A stretch of DNA of 64,000 bases, taken from NCBI GenBank assembly GCA_950295325.1, contig OX485806.1, positions 33,108,001-33,172,000 of the forward strand, given 5' to 3'. The DNA is from Polytrichum commune. Lineage: Eukaryota; Streptophyta; Polytrichopsida; Polytrichales; Polytrichaceae. Below are positions 6,101 through 58,632 of the stretch, one piece after another (the first letter of the stretch is position 1; each line of letters opens with the position of its first letter). A model generated the notes under the pieces. The model worked only from the letters and a program-made list of their open reading frames with translations. It was not told the DNA's origin and ran no database searches. The position numbers and the translations under genes are program-made.

Positions 6101-6224
6101 AAATATTAGGCTATGTTGTTTCCAAAGGTGGAAGCATTGGTGTCCATGCCGGCATCTAGAAATCCTCATGATATTCAAGTCTTCAATGGTATAGCCCAAT
6201 GCTATTAGTGCTTCATCACAAGAT

Positions 6225-6660
6225 TCACATTCATAATGATGCCCATTACCAAATTGATGCAACATTCAAAGGATTTTGTATGGACACGTGGCTGCCAAGT
6301 GGCTTTTGAAGACATCAAATCTCGGTACATTTATGCTCCTATACTTATTATAGCACACTCGGATAAGGAATTCCATGTTCATACACATGCGTCCAATCTT
6401 GCTATAGGCATAATATAGCCCAAAATCTAAGTAGGAAATGTGATCACCCTATAGCTTATACATCACATTACTTAACAAGGTATAATGGAATTAAACAACT
6501 ATGGAATGTGTTGGCCATGGTGTATGCGTTGCACAAATTCCATCATTATTTGTTGAGTAACATTTTAAAAAAATAAAAAATAATGATGTAGAAGACATGG
6601 CCTTAGTGTACTTGGTTAATAAACTTCAAGTTAAGGAAGAATAGCTTGTTGGTTATTTTT
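6225..6660 (+). pseudogene. gypsy RNase H remnant
   Basis: An open stretch at 6,236-6,418 reads CQVAFEDIKSRYIYAPIL and then KEFHVHTHASNLAIG. It matches the join between the RT connection and the RNase H domain of plant gypsy elements. The usual motif is HTDAS, and here the catalytic Asp has become His. Further on, LTRYNGIKQLWNVLAMVYAL (about 6,471-6,530) is the T-Y-TEKELLA-V-AL segment. Stops separate the pieces. Confidence 0.8.
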
Positions 6661-6719
6661 TTCTTATAATATAATTTTACACTAGTATATAAACCCGATA
6701 AAAGCTACATAGTAGCCGA

Positions 6720-7640
6720 TGGCTTGACCCGGTTGGCCAAATTTGAACCACCAATAAGAATACCCGATCCATCCATGAATGCCACATTCTTCAATGTGGA
6801 AGTTCATCAGAACAACGATTTATGAATGTACCTCAGCATGGAGAACTCCCCAATTACTTGTCAAAGGAACAACGCCAACTATTAATCCTACATGGTTCAA
6901 GTTTTTCATAAAGGACGGGATTCTCTTCCGTCAAGGACTAGATTTACTACGGTGTCGTTGCCTTCAATTAGTAGAAGTGCGTACGTTGTTGCAATTATTC
7001 CATGCATGACCAGGAGGTGGCCACTTGGTAGCCCCAATCACAACCCGGAAAATTCTCAACACTGATATTGGTGGCCCAAGTTGCATAAGGATATCATCAA
7101 TTACTACGGAAGCTTCAAGATTGCCAACAAACATGTGGGCTAAATACCATATCCCTTGCTCAACTTGTCACTACAATGTCAGCATAACCCTTTATGAAAT
7201 GTGGGGTGAGATTTTGTTGGACCCATTAAATTTATATATATAAGTTGCTACCAACTACACTACCAAATGGGTAGAAGCTAAGGCTCTTTGTACCAACATT
7301 GTAGTAGTTATTACCCAGTTTATGTATGAGAACATTCTTACCCATTTTGAATGCCCATTATTCCTAATGAGTGACCAAGGCACGCATTTTATCAATGAGG
7401 TCATCCAATACTTAGCATATATATATAATAAATCATAGGACATCAACAACTTATTACCCACATGGTAATGGACATGTGGAGTCATCCAATAGATTTATAG
7501 ATACCTTGTTGTTGACGAAGTTGGTTAATGACTTACGGTGTGACTAGGACAAACATCTAGTGATGGTTCTATTTGCCTACATGACTTCCTTTAAGGTTGC
7601 TATCGGATTCTCTTTGTTCTAATTAGTGTATGGTACTATG
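6720..7640 (+). pseudogene. gypsy integrase remnant
   Basis: The zinc-binding end is visible as LLQLFHA followed by GGHLVAPITTRKIL (6,985-7,055). The core reads [14 protein letters not shown] at 7,252-7,293, where the first catalytic Asp of the D-D-E set is Asn. [13 protein letters not shown] at 7,367-7,405 keeps the second Asp. In another frame GNGHVESSNRFIDTLL (about 7,457-7,504) keeps the Glu. The first catalytic residue is lost and the frame is broken. Confidence 0.8.
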
Positions 7641-7689: not shown

Positions 7690-8620
7690 AATTATTTTGA
7701 ATTGGATATGCAATAGTATCAATAGTTGTTGTAGATCTCAATGCAAGGACCGTGGTTCTAATGTCTACCAAGGCTCCCCTTTGGAGTGCATACCACTAGA
7801 ATTATGAGTGTCGAAGTTGTGTAAAGTTATGTTCAAGAGCTGATAATCCCCTTATTTAATCTCTAAACCCTCAACACCTCATAAGTTAAGTACTTTGACA
7901 AGATGTAGTGTGGAAGTGAAAATTTGCAACTTGGATTCAATATGGACCTCAAGGTGTTATAAGGAGGGGTTTAAGATTGCTTATAATAATGATACTTTTA
8001 GCTAGTAACATTAAGAATGACCCTATATGAAATTTTACCCATTCATCATAGATATTATTCCAACCGGAACATACATAGATATAGCATAATTGTAGGAAAC
8101 ATTGGAGTAGGTCTAAATGACATTAACTTAGATACATAATACATGTATGTAATTATTGTTGTCACATATGTCTTTCACTTTCTCTTTTAATAGGTTACAC
8201 TAAATGTGAGTCTAATACCATGGCGCAAAATAATTTATCATCTCAACATTTGTTAAGAGTTTTCATAAATAATCACATATCTTGTAGAAACTCACACCCA
8301 ACCCTTTGAGACTTAACTAGTAGTTGCACGTCATTTGTTTTCCTTGGTTATTTCATCGCATTGTGCATGCAAATGTGTTTTTTTCTTTGAAACACATAAC
8401 CAAATCTACTAAAGCTTACATCAAAATCAAACATATGAGGGCAAGGATTGTCTCTTTCCACAACTCCATGCAATTTATGTTGGAAACTAATTGTAGGGGT
8501 GGGGTGTGAAGAGATAAAATTTTAATTAGTTTCACCCGACTTCTCAAAAAAGACTAGTTTAAGATCGCCTTGAAAGACTATGTCCTCACCAAAATTTGCA
8601 AAGCCCGATTGCACATTGCC
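7690..8620. other. intergenic DNA, nothing recognised
   Basis: AT-rich sequence with no reading frame longer than ~60 codons. It could include the 3' end of the gypsy element, but no LTR or polypurine tract could be fixed. Confidence 0.4.
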
Positions 8621-18773: not shown

Positions 18774-19676
18774 TTGGTGTTGGGGTTGATACTAAGGGGG
18801 GGGGGGGGCTCTCTGTTCCGACACAAAATTAGTACCCTCTCCTCAACCTCTACCACGTGTCATGCTCACATTCACTACGACACACTCGTATCCCATGTGG
18901 AACCTACATTCTTGCACATGTAAAGACGGAGACGAGGTATAAAATCAGTTCAATCGATGCGTTTTCACGTTGCTAATGGATGAGTTTACGTAGAGCTATT
19001 GGTGTTGATACTACCGTAGAGGACTCTCTGTTCCAACACATCATCAGTATCCGCTCCTCAACCTCTGCCACGTGTCATGCTCACATTCACTACGACACAC
19101 TCGTATCCCATGTGGAACCTACATTCTTGCACATGTAAAGACGGAGACGGGAACCCTCTATGTTATAAAATCAGTTCGTTTTGATGCGTTTTCACGTCGC
19201 TAACAGATGTGTTTACGTAGAGCTATTGGTGTTGATACTACCATAGAGGACTTTATGTTCCAACACATAATCAGTATCCTCTCCTCAACCTCTGCCACGT
19301 GTCATGCTCACATTCACTACGACACACTCGTATCCCCTGTGGAACCTACATTCTTGCACATGTAAAGACAGAGACAAGAACCCTCTATGTTATAAAATCA
19401 GTTTGTTTCGATGCGTTTTCACGTCGCTAACGGATGTGTTTACGTAGAGCTATTGGTGTTGATACTACCATAGAGGGCTCTCTGTTCCAACACAAAATTA
19501 GTACCCTCACCTCAACCTCTGCCACGTGTCATGCTCACATTCACTACGACACACTCGTATCCCATGTGGAACCTACATTCCAACACATGTAAAGACGGAG
19601 ACGGGAACCCTCTACCGTATAGAATTAGTTCGTTTCGATGCGTTTTCACGTTGCCTAACGGATGAGTTTACGTAGG
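18774..19676 (+). repeat. tandem array, four ~226-bp units
   Basis: Units begin with TTGGTGTTGATACTACC at about 18,774, 18,998, 19,224 and 19,452 and end with GTTTACGTAGAGCTA. Periods are 224-228 bp. Each unit contains GCCACGTGTCATGC (a G-box-like core), CACTCGTATCCC and, near its end, TATAAAATCAG or a variant (TATAGAATTAG in the last unit). Similarity between units is very high, so the array expanded recently. No reading frame is conserved. Confidence 0.9.
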
Positions 19677-47697: not shown

Positions 47698-50600
47698 ATG
47701 GACTCCCGACAGGGGTTACCGGCGCTGAACCATCTGTTGCAACACACTCTTCGCAGCTTGTGCACCGACTCGCAATGGGTTTACGCGGTGTTTTGGCGCA
47801 TCCTGCCCCGCAATTACCCGCCTCCTCAGTGCGTGCTCCTCCTCACCACTTTAATATTATTTTCTCAACCTGATCAATGCACCACCGCCACCGCACGCGA
47901 TCCTCTTTCATGTCATCCATGTCATAACATCACTGATTTCTCACTGTGAATTCTTGTCTCTCCTCAAGTTGGAATTCTCTCTCCTTGCCGGTGTTGGTGT
48001 CTATTCTCTAGATTCCCTTTCTGAAGTTCAATTCCTGTGCTTCCATGAGGATTCAGTGTTTCTGATCCTCACATTACATGTGCAAAAGTTCTTCAAAACT
48101 TGTGTAGGAGCAATGTAGCCACCGGTTTGGGTTCTCAGGTGGAGTAGGTTGCTAGATTTTGTGTGAGGAATCTGCAAAAACCCAAACTTCCTCTCAGAAT
48201 ATGATGTTCGTGCACTTCACCTTCAGACGGATCTCTTTACATACTACATTCTCCCCCTCCCTCTTAGCCACCAGCGTAGAGGTCATCGAGATCACCAACA
48301 ACACTAAGCTAGTTTCTTTGCGTCCAGCTCTATGGACTACCGCTCTCTTGCTTTCTTTTCTTTCCATCCTCAGGAAGCTGTAGAAATGTATCCACAGCAA
48401 TCACTTGGTAGCTCTCTAACTTCGAGTAGAGTCGAGAAGATCAGTGTGCAATCCTTCTTAGCCAACCACTTGAAGAACTCTCTTAAGTTAGTAGATCACC
48501 CCAAGCCTTTCTCTAGAGTGAGTTAGTTCCCTCTACCTCTACCTCTACCTCTACCTCTACCTCTACCTCTACCTGCATTGTTGGGACCTGCATTGTGTGG
48601 ACCTGCATTGTCTCCAAAGTTAGATCACGTGTGTCTGCATCAGCGGTTGACGAGTTTGCTGTCGTTAGTATTTCCACTGCTTCATTCCAGTCCCTTAGAA
48701 CCTTCAGTGGGGCACTGCTGGGTTGCCGCAGATTAGAAAATTTGGTTTGGGGAAACTTCGAAGGAAAACTCTCCTAACCTTCGCAATTGTGGTTGACCCA
48801 CAGATGGGACACCGAAGGTGGCGTAATGGACAGATCGAAAGGAAACAAACGCAACTGGTATAATTATGCTAGCTTCCCCTCAATCTCTCCACATGCTATT
48901 GTTCGCAATTTCAGATGTGTTCTTGGTGGAGTTCTACAACAATTGTTAAATCTACGTTAAGTCAGATTTTAGTGATTTTTCTCCTAATGGGCATCCAAGG
49001 GTTGGTTCGGACTTTAATTCTCTCTCTCGACTGAAATCCTGGTTAAACCATCTTCACAGTCGAGAATGGACCCGAAGACTCAGGAAAAAGAGGGTTTGGG
49101 CTAGTGAATTGTCTCTCAAGTCTAAAACAAGGTGGCGGTGTGCAGGATTCTAGTGTGGGAGGATGGTTTCTGCAACTTCTCAGCCTGTGCTGGTGCAGCC
49201 AAGGATGCAAGGGGCGGTTCCCACTTCTTCGGAGCGCAACAGCACCGGGGCAGTGACGATGAGTCGGAGGCCATGAATCCGGAGCTTTTCTTCAAGATGT
49301 CACACGAAGTGTACAACTACGGAGAAGGGTAGAAACCTCCACCCAAACCATTGAAGCTAATATCCATCCTCCCTCTTACCATATGTGTGACCAACTCACC
49401 ACCCAAAAGCCAACTTCACATCAATCTCTCTGCAGACAAGTTTTGAAGACAAGCCCAACCATTGATGCTAACATCCATCCTCCTAACTCATTACCCAAAA
49501 TCCAACTTCACATCAATCTGCAGACAAGCTTTGAAGCAAGCCTAACCCTGGTTATTGGCCGTTGTTGTTGGTGGCAGGTTGATGGGCAAGGTAGCTGTCG
49601 ACAACAGCCACAAGTGGGTGTACCGAGAGCCGATGGAGCATGAGATCAGCTTCATCTCCCCTTGGCACGGCTCCCTGGACCCTGTGAGCCACTTTTCCCC
49701 GCATTCCCAAGCTCTTTTCCTCCCAATTTGCTCTTCACATTGTTTCGTCACCCTGGTTATGCAACAATTTGCCGGAGTCTTCTCGTTACCGCTGGAAATG
49801 TAGCCGAATATCAAGACAAAAACCCACTATTGGGAACTGCTGATGATGCAGATTGGTGTGCATAACCTCTGGTCAAATGGCTTGGCACCATTTGGCTATA
49901 GCCACGTGTTTTTTTTAAAATTATTTATTTTCTATTTCATTCTAATTTGTGATCGCTTCCTTTTTTTATTGCTTTGGACTGAGTATGTAACTTTAAAAGC
50001 TTTTGCTTAACTATCTCTGTTGATTCTTATTTTGTGGTGTACTTGTGTCCTTGATATTTAAGCGTTGTCTGAGCCTCAATTCTTGCGAGGACATGTTTCC
50101 TCACATGGCTGGGGTTCAATTGGGTCACTGGCTCTTGCTCTGACACCGTGGGAGCCTGTTTTGTAGCATCCACGCACATGGGAGGCCCAATTCAAGTCTG
50201 GAATTCAGACGATTGCAGTCGTGGCGGTTCAAGAAGGTGTTCTTCAGCTGGGATCCACCAAGAAGGTGATCATCACCGTGCTCATTCTCTGTCCTATCTT
50301 GTGGGCAAACCGCAGTGCCAAAGTTCTCCTTTCTTCTGTGGATGGCTAGCAAGATTTGCTGCAACCTGTAAAAGCAGGCTCCTTTGCTGGCTGTTTGCAC
50401 ATGGACCCCCTGTGGCAGTCACATTTTGTGAGCTCCATTGCAAGTCTGTGAGTGTGCACACAATGATCTGTGTCTACACACTACAAACCATGCCTTAAAA
50501 CGTCTGCATTGTTATTGAATCTGCATTTATTTCATATCCGGTTGCTGTAGCACATAGCAGAGGATCTGAACTTTGTGCTCCACATGCAATCTTGACTATT

Positions 50601-51808
50601 TCGATTTCGAGTCGCATTGGCAGATAACAGAGGATCTAAACTTTTATGATCCACATGCAAATCTTCCTGTATTCGATTTCGAGTTGCTCTGGCACATAAC
50701 AGAGGATCTGAACTTTGTGCCCCACATGCAATTCTTGACGGTTCCAACTTCTGGTTGCTTTGGGCAGATAACGGAGGATCTGAGCTTTCATGCTCCACAC
50801 GATGCAAATCTTGACATGTTTGATTTCTGGTTGCTTTGGCAGATAATGGAGGATCTGAACTTTGTGCTTCACATGCAACGGAAATTCAACTACCTCCAGT
50901 CGATCCCTGGGGTGTTTGTGCCTCACCCGGCATCGACCACAGGAGGGGCCAGTGTTCGGAAACGCAATGGAGAGGGCTCCCCACCGGCCGACCGTGGCCA
51001 CTGGATGGCAGCCGCAGAGTACGAGAGGCTCACGGCCGCAGGCGGCCACTTGACGGCCCGATCGATTGACCAGTTCCTTTCGCCACGGCTGGGTCCTGAC
51101 CCATGGCGACCGGCAACTGACACGTCCATCCTCGGGATGAAGAGGCCCCCGGACGGCGAGCCAATGCCACTCAACTTCAAGGACTACAATTCGTACATGA
51201 ACGGAAATGGCAATGGGAGTGTTGGATTTGAGTGCCGGCCGGAGTGCCCGTCGCCCCCGAAAGCATTGAACACAGGGCAGTCAAGCCCTCAAGGCAGCGC
51301 GAGCCCCACCATCCCGAACCTACTCCCCTCGATGTCAAGCTTGCAAGCGCTGCTATCAAAGCTCCCGAGCGTGACGCCGATGGAAGGTGACCAGAGCAAG
51401 GTGGCGTCCTCGTCGTCGCCGCCGAGGAGTAACGGGTTCGAGGTCGGGGGGTTGGGATCCGGGAGCAACAATTTCAGCAGCAACCGGCCCCCGATCGGGC
51501 GGTCGTCGGGGAAGGTGGTGAAGGAGGCGGCGGCAGTGCTGGATGTGCATGGGTTGGACTGCTTGCAGGGGAGCAGTACTGGGACGGCTGGGAGCCCACC
51601 CCAGCAATCGGGATCGGATGTCATGTCCGGGGGGGAGGCGCCCGAGGAGTCGGGCAGCGGGACACCGCAGCAGGACGGAGGCACCTCCTCCGTTTCACAG
51701 CAGCAACCCACATTCCTGGACACGTTTGCGAACCTCGAGGACTTTGGGCTGCCACTCGAGAACGTCAACGACTCCTACAACTCATTTTTGAACGAGATAT
51801 GCAGCTGA
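47698..51808 (+). CDS. bHLH-MYC_N domain protein, LONESOME HIGHWAY-like (5 exons, 494 aa)
   Basis: Exons: 47,698-47,828; 49,146-49,328; 49,578-49,683; 50,167-50,265; 50,843-51,808. All junctions are GT-AG and the join is 1,485 bases with no stop. Residues ~8-190 form the N-terminal domain shared by plant MYC and LHW-type regulators: QHTLRSLCTDSQWVYAVFW (15-33), ILVWEDGFCNF (45-55), EVYNYGEGLMGKVA (98-111), SGIQTIAVVAVQEGVLQLGS (151-170), EDLNFVLHMQRKF (176-188). The rest is Ser/Pro/Gly-rich and probably disordered, with SSLQALLSKLPS and an acidic end (FANLEDFGLPLENV). No kinase domain and no DNA-binding bHLH are visible, although relatives are labelled 'WNK-related'. Members of this family are thought to be nuclear; function here is inferred. 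The ATG follows an in-frame region without another ATG. Exon 5 is very GC-rich. The exon 5 start has alternatives (see 50,541-50,890). Confidence 0.9.
48529..48574. repeat. hexanucleotide repeat (CTCTAC)7 in intron 1
   Basis: About seven copies of CTCTAC within the 1,317-bp first intron, followed by two copies of GGACCTGCATTGT. Confidence 0.92.
49340..49545 (+). repeat. tandem duplication filling intron 2
   Basis: Two copies of a unit of about 90-118 bp, each with CCATTGAAGCTAATATCCAT or a close variant, CCAACTTCACATCAATCT and TGCAGACAAG. They occupy most of the 249-bp intron. The second is shortened. Confidence 0.85.
50541..50890 (+). repeat. five tandem copies of the intron 4 / exon 5 boundary
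   Basis: Units of 70-75 bp repeat the acceptor and first codons of exon 5: GCAGATAACAGAGGATCTGA and variants, then a CCACATGCAA-like end. The GAG of ITEDLNF falls at 50,560, 50,630, 50,702, 50,774 and 50,849. Copies 2, 4 and 5 keep CAG before ATA; copies 1 and 3 have CAC. The frame is open from 50,573 through the stop at 51,808. Acceptors at 50,624, 50,768 or 50,843 would therefore all give in-frame proteins, with 73, 25 or 0 extra residues. The last gives the family's normal sequence. Confidence 0.9.
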
Positions 51809-53819: not shown

Positions 53820-54985
53820 GTTGGAGTCTAGAAAATGGTTGTGAGGGTCTAAAGTCAACCCTCGAATTGGTTAAAAACATGGGTGTTTTCTCATGGGCGT
53901 GTGGGGCAGACCTCATGGGCATTGCAACTTTACATCGACATTTGCTCATGGAGGGGTGGAGCACCCAAGGTCAAAAGTCTTGCTCCCAGAGGAGGATGCC
54001 TCCGACTCATGAGCGAAGCAAGCATGCTTGCGTGTAGAGGGCACATCCGAAGGCCCTTGATTGCACCCATTCCTCGAGCTTACAAAGTATAGTTCGAGGA
54101 TAGTGTTGTTCTTCAACTTATCCCCCTTTGACATGATTATGATTGACATAGATTCAAGAATCACATTCAAGGTCAATCGTATTCAACCACATCCCAAGCT
54201 ACACCAATAACATTCATAAGAATAACCACAAATCACAGCAAAACAAACACGAGATAAAACATAAACGAGGGAGGGTTTGAGCTTCCTTGTTTGGCCGAGG
54301 CAGCTACGCGCAATCAAGGTATCAACCCTTGAATCCATCCCCCACATCACACAAGGTCCAACAACTTCGATCGTGATCGCTACAATTGCTCGCCACTCCC
54401 CCAACTCCATGTAGCATGAAGCGCACATGTGCACACTCCCCATCAAGGAATATTAATGGAAATTTGGCAAGTTACAACTAGAGAGTAATCAACAAAGAGA
54501 ACGGTCACTGGTCCTTGCAATTACCACCACTAAGCACTAGCAACCAATGCACATTCATCTTGGGCGATGAAACCAAACACAAGGGTGCTACCAAAGGTGA
54601 TGGTGGATTGGCAGTCTATGATTGCTATGGCAATAGAGAGCTCACAGGCAATGAACGAAGTGGCGATGAAGAGCTCAGGGATGGGGAAAATGGACGCGGG
54701 AGATCTCACATGTGGCAATGGGACTTAATGTTGGCAAGGGTGTCGCATCACTGGCTACATGTAGAGGAAGACGGCAGCTGAGAGAGGACAAGTAGGGCCT
54801 TCAAGTAAGTGGAGGGTGGCACTCATGGAGCTTTGTGGCTCTAGACAAGTGGTGGCCAGTGTTATGATGGCCCTTGCCATTGAGTGACTTGGATATTTTA
54901 ACACAAATTTTTTGTGGTCCCCAAATTTTGTTTCAATATTTGGCCCCTTTTATACCTAAAAAAAGGTTGTTGTATACCCAATACC
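53820..54985. other. intergenic DNA, no gene recognised
   Basis: A + frame at 54,515-54,781 and overlapping minus frames show no domain. Probably repeat debris. Confidence 0.35.
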
Positions 54986-54989
54986 AAAC

Positions 54990-55735
54990 ACCATGAATCA
55001 TGGTCACACATATAAGGGATTCATATGTATGATTGTGGTACATAATGATACCATGGTTTGGAGTTTTGTAGTAAGGTATGTACATCCAGCACTATGTACC
55101 ATAATCACACATTGAGGGGCTTCAGATGTATGACTATGGTACATAGTCATACCATGATTTGGAAGTCTTATAAATTATGTATATCCAAAACCAACATTAA
55201 GTGTCATAATCAAAACATTTGGGGGTTTCATATACATGATTAAATACATAGTGAGACTTTGATTTGGAAATCTTATAAAGTACGTATACCCAAAACAAGC
55301 ATTAATTATCACAATCACACATGTAAGGGCTTCATATGCATGATTGTGGTACATAGTGATACCATGATTTGGAAGTCTCATGAAGTATGTATACTCAAAA
55401 CCAACATTAAGTATCACAATCACACATTTGGGGGGGTTTCATGTGCATGATTCTGCTACATAGTGAGACCATGTGGAGGTCTTGTAGTAAGGTATGTACA
55501 TCCAATATCAACATTATGTATCACAATTACACATTTGGAGGTTTCATATGTATGGATGTGGTCCATAGTGATATCATATGAAAGTCTCGTAAGACATGTA
55601 TACCCAAAACCAACACTACATACCGACCGATAATATACATTCATGATTTTCAAATGTAACGATTGTGGTGCATTATGATACCATGTGAAAATCTTGTGTG
55701 GTATGTAAACCCGGAACCTATGTGTTGGTTTTGAG
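54990..55735 (+). repeat. ~105-bp minisatellite, about seven copies
   Basis: The marker ACCATGATTTGGAAGTCTTA or variants recurs at about 55,051, 55,152, 55,256, 55,362, 55,469, 55,573 and 55,681, spaced 101-108 bp. Each unit also has CCAAAACCAACATTAAGT, ATCACAATCACACAT and GGGGTTTCATAT. Units differ by 15-25% by eye, so the array is fairly old. Confidence 0.9.
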
Positions 55736-58343: not shown

Positions 58344-58632
58344 CATAACATTATTCATAACCATAACAATGTTTTGTGTGCTGACAATATTTCATAGAAA
58401 ATAACATTATTCATAACCATAACAATGTTTTGTGTGCTGACAATATTTCATAGAAAATTTCCTGATATCCCCCACATCCGGTCTGAATGTGGGGATATCA
58501 AGGAATATTCTGTAGAATATTGGCAGTCCACATATATTCTCACATTCAGTTTGAATGTGGGAAATATCAAGAAAAATTCCGTGGAATATTGTAAGTCCAC
58601 AGAGCATTGTTATGGTTCTGAATAATGTTATG
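58344..58632. mobile_element. palindromic MITE (CATAACATTATTCA family), copy 2, with duplicated end
   Basis: Begins CATAACATTATTCATAACC and ends with its inverted copy TTCTGAATAATGTTATG. The first ~57 bases (TAACATTATTCATAACCATA through TTTCATAGAAAA) occur twice in tandem. The interior carries two GAATGTGGG-type boxes. The copy at 41,230 is the simple form. Confidence 0.8.

Follow-up and report, generated by a model that had tools for sequence, protein, structure and literature searches.

A Minisatellite-Type Array of Five Diverged Units across the Intron 5/Exon 6 Acceptor of a bHLH-MYC_N Gene

Gene Model and Predicted Product

The window, that is, the whole 64,000-nucleotide stretch of DNA that was analysed, carries a bHLH-MYC_N gene whose last intron ends in a tandem array. 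The coordinates of the gene, the array and its units are collected in Table 1. All five introns of the model are of the GT-AG type, and the reading frame is maintained across the splices. In intron 1, a CCTCTA hexamer array was listed by Tandem Repeats Finder (TRF) at 48530-48574 (7.5 copies, 100% matches).

The product spliced to acceptor 50843 belongs to the bHLH-MYC_N family (Pfam PF14215), with a score of 123.9 bits against a gathering cut-off of 30.2, an E-value of 1.2e-35, and model positions 1-181 of 181 covered. No other Pfam family was found in the 512-residue product at E ≤ 1, and no bHLH DNA-binding domain was found by Pfam at the same threshold. The product shares with the RSS3-like subgroup the lack of a DNA-binding bHLH in the Pfam result, and its predicted single-domain architecture fits the RSS3 type; presumably, the protein resembles rice RSS3. 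In the available part of PMC9318458, RSS3-type proteins are described as having an N-terminal bHLH-type domain and lacking the DNA-binding domain, and their partners in rice are given as class-C bHLH and JAZ proteins in the corresponding parts of PMC9318458 and PMC7352843.

The assembly holding the window comprises 407.8 Mb in 64 contigs. When the protein was searched against the host genome, six matches were obtained at E ≤ 0.01, all six being exons of its own gene, and no paralogue was seen in this search. A second gene copy acting as a backup was considered and dropped, as the host genome gave no other match at that threshold.

Table 1. Features of the bHLH-MYC_N gene and of the tandem array at its intron 5/exon 6 boundary
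Feature	Position	Strand	Description
bHLH-MYC_N gene	47698..51808	+	six coding exons; 512 aa with acceptor 50843; own predicted gene model
Coding exons 1-3	47698-47828, 48804-48857, 49146-49328	+	gene model
Coding exons 4-6	49578-49683, 50167-50265, 50843-51808	+	gene model
Intron 5, spliced to the domain-preserving acceptor	50266..50842	+	AAG/gtgatc ... ttggcag/ATAATGG, phase 0
Tandem array, five units	50518..50876	+	per unit 36-38 nt intron-derived and 34-38 nt exon-derived
Unit 1	50518..50587	+	CAC before 50554; without TTGAC; not in frame with unit 2; in-frame TGA downstream
Unit 2	50588..50658	+	CAG before 50624; TTGAC 50592-50596; additional AG at -14
Unit 3	50659..50729	+	CAC before 50696; TTGAC motif altered
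Unit 4	50730..50805	+	CAG before 50768; TTGAC 50735-50739; no intervening AG; +25 aa if used
Unit 5	50806..50876	+	CAG before 50843; TTGAC 50811-50815; no intervening AG; domain-preserving acceptor

Structure of the Tandem Array

The array spans the intron 5/exon 6 boundary of the gene, and its copies have diverged. A preceding sequence-only reading had assigned it to the boundary of intron and exon 5, a numbering that our gene model revises. Its description of five tandem copies of about 72 bp at this boundary was reproduced almost to the base, both by direct reading and by TRF, which described 50541-50878 with a period of 72 bp (4.7 copies, score 380) or of 147 bp (2.3 copies, score 417). 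With head-to-tail units of tens of base pairs (TRF period 72, 4.7 copies), the array is a minisatellite.

Unit borders were set by cutting between ATGC and AA. The intron-derived left halves of units 1 to 5 measured 36, 36, 37, 38, and 37 nt, and the exon-derived right halves 34, 35, 34, 38, and 34 nt, respectively, the exon half of unit 5 being the native start of exon 6.

The left edge of the array, previously placed at 50541 in line with the TRF border, was moved outward to about 50518, as a further 23 nt of the intron-derived half of unit 1 match the unit beyond that border. When these 23 nt were scored against the remaining units, their score was reached at 0.03-0.18% of randomly chosen window positions and at 0.14-0.33% of positions in the introns of the gene, the background fraction depending on the score used and on the background chosen (0.0003-0.0033 overall). 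The five-unit array is not a product of chance. Further copies of it elsewhere in the assembly were considered and dropped, the search having returned one match only, subject to the caveat of the tool concerning common words.

Splice Signals and Candidate Acceptors

Acceptor-equivalents were located by direct reading at 50554 (CAC), 50624 (CAG), 50696 (CAC), 50768 (CAG), and 50843 (CAG), spaced from left to right by 70, 72, 72, and 75 bp. Both the retention of CAG in copies 2, 4, and 5 and the 72, 72, and 75 bp between copies 2 to 5 had been described correctly before.

Branch-site consensus and AG scanning serve as criteria for ranking acceptors. CAG and a branch-site-like TTGAC motif occurred together only in units 2, 4, and 5, with TTGAC at -32, -33, and -32, respectively, and unit 5 carries an additional TTGAT motif at -23. 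No yTRAy motif was found in units 1 and 3, where looser yTNAy motifs (TTTAT, TTCAT) are present. The motif is no sure mark of an acceptor, since within 60 nt of the gene's other four acceptors one yTRAy was present in two cases, two in one case, and none in one.

The pyrimidine fraction was highest in units 4 and 5 (0.65 in both) and reached 0.53 in unit 2. Between TTGAC and CAG, AG was absent in units 4 and 5, and one was present at -14 in unit 2. Judged by pyrimidine fraction and intervening AG, the strongest sites appear to be 50843 and 50768, with 50624 weaker; as candidate acceptors, 50768 and 50624 could plausibly be used alternatively. The acceptor module (TTGAC, tract, and CAG) is contained whole in the repeated unit, as in a duplication of the potato RdRp type.

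Reading Frame and Domain Continuity

The frame is open from 50570 as far as the stop codon at 51808, which agrees with the earlier statement that it is open throughout copies 2 to 5. Splicing in silico from exon 5 (ending at 50265) to 50768, 50696, or 50624 added 25, 49, or 73 residues, respectively, to the 512-residue product, and the formerly predicted gains of 73, 25, and 0 residues for 50624, 50768, and 50843 were recovered; all three CAG acceptors would splice in frame. Splicing to 50554 shifted the frame and led to a stop after 204 residues.

A right half of 34 nt joined to a left half of 36 nt makes 70 nt, and the frame of unit 1 then runs into a stop. Relative to this length, units 2, 3, and 4 carry distinct indels, each of which brings the length to a multiple of three (72, 72, and 75). 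The suggestion that each repeat adds an ITEDLNF-like segment held for about 7 of the 24-25 residues but failed beyond them, where the inserted peptide of unit 3 lies in a different frame from those of units 2 and 4. In an ungapped hand count, the peptides of units 2 and 3 agreed at 2 of 17 positions. The peptides of units 2 and 4, of 24 and 25 residues, each contain five acidic and five aromatic residues and neither K nor R.

The Pfam scan of spliced products covered the three CAG acceptors (50624, 50768, and 50843). With acceptor 50843, the 226-residue N-terminal part filled PF14215 from 1 to 181 of 181 at 126.7 bits. With the inserts of 73 and 25 residues, the scores were 119.6 and 119.3 bits, and coverage stopped at 173 of 181, so that the long inserts cost the match about 7 bits and the complete domain was obtained, among the three CAG acceptors, with 50843 only. 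The phmmer alignment to MYC3 ran ungapped across the junction and was weak, with E 0.0029 for the whole sequence and 1.3 for this stretch by itself. The filled PF14215 model, together with this weak ungapped alignment, supports 50843 as the putative ancestral, domain-preserving site.

Chance and Constraint

The 219 nt from 50624 to 50842 are fully open, a state reached by 1.9% of base shuffles. When neutral decay was simulated, all three units were open in 0.74-2.67% of runs with founders of 70 or 71 nt, and in 1.7-23.5% with 72-nt founders that were already open. As a model-free permutation test, the half-units were re-paired (right halves 1-4 with left halves 2-5), and units 2-4 were open in 2 of 24 arrangements.

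For the splice signals, a post hoc value of p = 0.03 was obtained for at least two of the four spare copies sharing every one of the eight signal bases with copy 5, the differences among the copies being taken into account. Fisher combination of signal retention with the frame permutation gave 0.018, uncorrected for the case having been picked as open-looking. These values amount to a weak lean towards possible constraint on the signals and frame of the spare copies, not to a finding. The earlier proposal that the array tunes domain length was not supported. Only 50843 among the CAG acceptors fills PF14215, and the frame was retained in 2 of 24 re-pairings.

A difference was observed between the two halves of the unit. 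Identity was 82-94% among the exon-derived halves versus 56-78% among the intron-derived halves, the latter range suggesting an old, probably decaying array. Variable columns numbered 10 of 34 in the exon-derived part and 20 of 36 in the intron-derived part (Fisher p = 0.03), and the same contrast gave p = 0.05, 0.09, and 0.04 with three other choices of rows. The lower variation of the exon halves is not predicted by plain neutral decay.

Identity of the exon halves to that of unit 5 was 30/34, 28/34, 30/34, and 29/34 for units 1 to 4, respectively. The exon half of unit 1 (50554-50587) is acceptor-less and out of frame and is conserved like the others. Coding constraint as the cause was ruled out, because unit 1, having neither acceptor nor frame, is equally close. 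The pattern could be accounted for by gene conversion from the exon, which is under constraint, or by an intron half that changes faster.

In parsimony on the five units, the six shortest of 15 trees differed by no more than three steps, and CAC in copies 1 and 3 may reflect one event or two.

Tandem Arrays in the Surrounding Genome

Tandem arrays proved common in a TRF survey of 264 kb, which consisted of the window and twenty 10-kb stretches, with contig C4 as the only source. After merging, 36 arrays with a period of at least 30 and at least 1.8 copies were counted, including the one studied here. With a period of at least 40 and at least 3 copies, 14 arrays were counted, the studied array being excluded in this case as it was merged under its 147-bp row; 12 such arrays lay in the 200 kb outside the window (hand count). 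Scaled to the assembly, this corresponds to some 20,000 arrays, extrapolated from one contig. If tens of thousands of acceptors are assumed, placement alone should put some arrays on acceptors.

Other minisatellites in the window were located at 54971-55615 (105 bp × 6.2), 18938-19675 (227 bp × 3.3), and 58345-58458 (56 bp × 2.0, 100% matches by TRF). In the sampled host DNA, examples were found in stretch L006 at 6191-7368 (75 bp × 15.7) and in stretch L018 at 7937-8566 (67 bp × 9.4, 97% matches). Within the gene itself, intron 3 contains a diverged two-copy duplication (49343-49445 and 49454-49533) with TCTGCAG in each copy; it has gaps of 19 nt and 4 nt, lies upstream of acceptor 49578, and is missing from the TRF list.

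Discussion

A minisatellite expansion across the acceptor, with 50843 as the dominant site and 50768 as a possible minor one, is the reading that we hold to be most probable. In its favour are the filled domain model and the weak MYC3 alignment for 50843, the single locus matched by the protein, the frequency of tandem arrays in the surveyed DNA, the duplication in intron 3, the divergence of the intron-derived halves, and the potato precedent. Against it are the weak leans towards constraint in signals and frame, the lower variation of the exon-derived halves, and the proportions of open units in shuffles and neutral simulations. The history that we infer from the observed array, signals, frame, and domain continuity would have begun with a minisatellite-type duplication. 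The multiplied segment, about 70-72 bp long, would have comprised ~36 nt at the end of intron 5 and ~34 nt at the start of exon 6. The intron part would have carried with it a branch-site motif, a weak pyrimidine tract, and CAG, after which the copies would have diverged. The most downstream copy would have stayed on the native exon, its acceptor 50843 acting as the main site, while copies 1 and 3 became putatively dead acceptors. Low-level use of 50768, and less likely of 50624, may yield in-frame products with 25 or 73 additional residues, whose minor status we likewise infer; these residues would fall near the C-terminal end of the PF14215 domain.

Regulated competition among 50624, 50768, and 50843, giving nested isoforms of selected length, is considered unlikely. 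It would suit both signals being intact in copies 2, 4, and 5 only, three CAG sites in frame and open, and the weak statistical lean of the frame permutation and signal retention. However, conservation of the exon half is no lower in copy 1, which is acceptor-less and out of frame, than in copies 2 and 4, unit 3 has an insert that leaves the frame of units 2 and 4 past ITEDLNF, copy 2 has its additional AG at -14, and the case was chosen post hoc.

We regard it as improbable that the exon has become constitutively longer, the main acceptor having shifted to 50768 or 50624 and the downstream copies being now ordinary coding sequence. Such a shift would be compatible with the open frame from 50570 to 51808 and the intact motifs at the upstream sites, yet it would break a domain that runs without interruption in Pfam and, as far as a weak match can show, in MYC3, and unit 5 retains a full acceptor with the joint top pyrimidine content (0.65, with unit 4).

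A further reading, to which we attach very little probability, would make the array a cassette of spare acceptors. The regulator could then gain zero, one, or three repeat segments close to the end of its interaction domain, so that a JAZ/bHLH adaptor could be switched by acceptor choice from a plain to an activation-bearing form, and changes in copy number could adjust the regulator differently among populations. The acidic, aromatic peptides of units 2 and 4 may resemble short activation motifs.

Intron gain under way, in which a copy would be turned into a micro-exon by a donor within the array, the following CAG serving as acceptor, seems a shade more remote still. The potato RdRp gene provides a precedent, and GT at 50669 would close a 45-nt in-frame exon starting at 50624, but among the 11 GT sites listed for 50541-50842, no GTAAG, the donor in potato, was found. 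The introns left under this reading would be short for a plant. Finally, although assembly errors commonly arise at tandem repeats, an assembly artefact is hardly credible, since half-units 56-94% identical with distinct indels are not one sequence joined to itself, and the 408-Mb, 64-contig assembly gave one match.

Under the favoured minisatellite expansion, the significance of the locus depends on the sites used. Should the spare acceptors be in use, graded in-frame isoforms would have arisen by simple tandem duplication with the gene unbroken, and the array would offer a natural test of acceptor competition in similar surroundings with few signal bases differing. If 50843 alone is used, the locus would be an example of a splice site surviving a minisatellite on top of it.

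Comparison with Known Systems

In alternative 3' splice-site choice and at tandem acceptors, in-frame acceptors compete; in the present array, the candidate competitors are repeat copies that precede the native site by 75 and 219 bp. Among the matches listed in open-licence literature on multiplied or duplicated splice acceptors, judged by title, no five-copy acceptor array was found.

Duplication across a 3' splice site is already published for the potato RdRp gene PGSC0003DMG402000361, in which, according to the consulted part of PMC4974935, a tandem duplication across an intron-exon boundary occurred and 106 RNA-seq reads span the new exon boundary. As in the present array, the segment duplicated in this plant gene runs from the 3' part of an intron into the 5' part of the exon that follows, and the copy inherits branch site, pyrimidine tract, and CAG (same part of PMC4974935). 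The potato gene has two copies, a GTAAG donor has become active within its exon part, and RNA-seq documents a new intron, again by that excerpt of PMC4974935, whereas the array described here has five diverged copies without an internal GTAAG.

Novel intron positions in Drosophila, attributed to sliding or tandem duplication, likewise involve small duplications in or near coding sequence, but, in the portion of PMC2891723 available, the duplicated element is coding sequence with a proto-splice site and not a multiplied acceptor. The 24-bp multi-copy AGGT duplications of fission yeast (Zhu and Niu 2013, as cited in the excerpt of PMC4974935) likewise consist of several tandem copies with splice signals; there, in contrast to the present array, an exonic unit creates whole introns.
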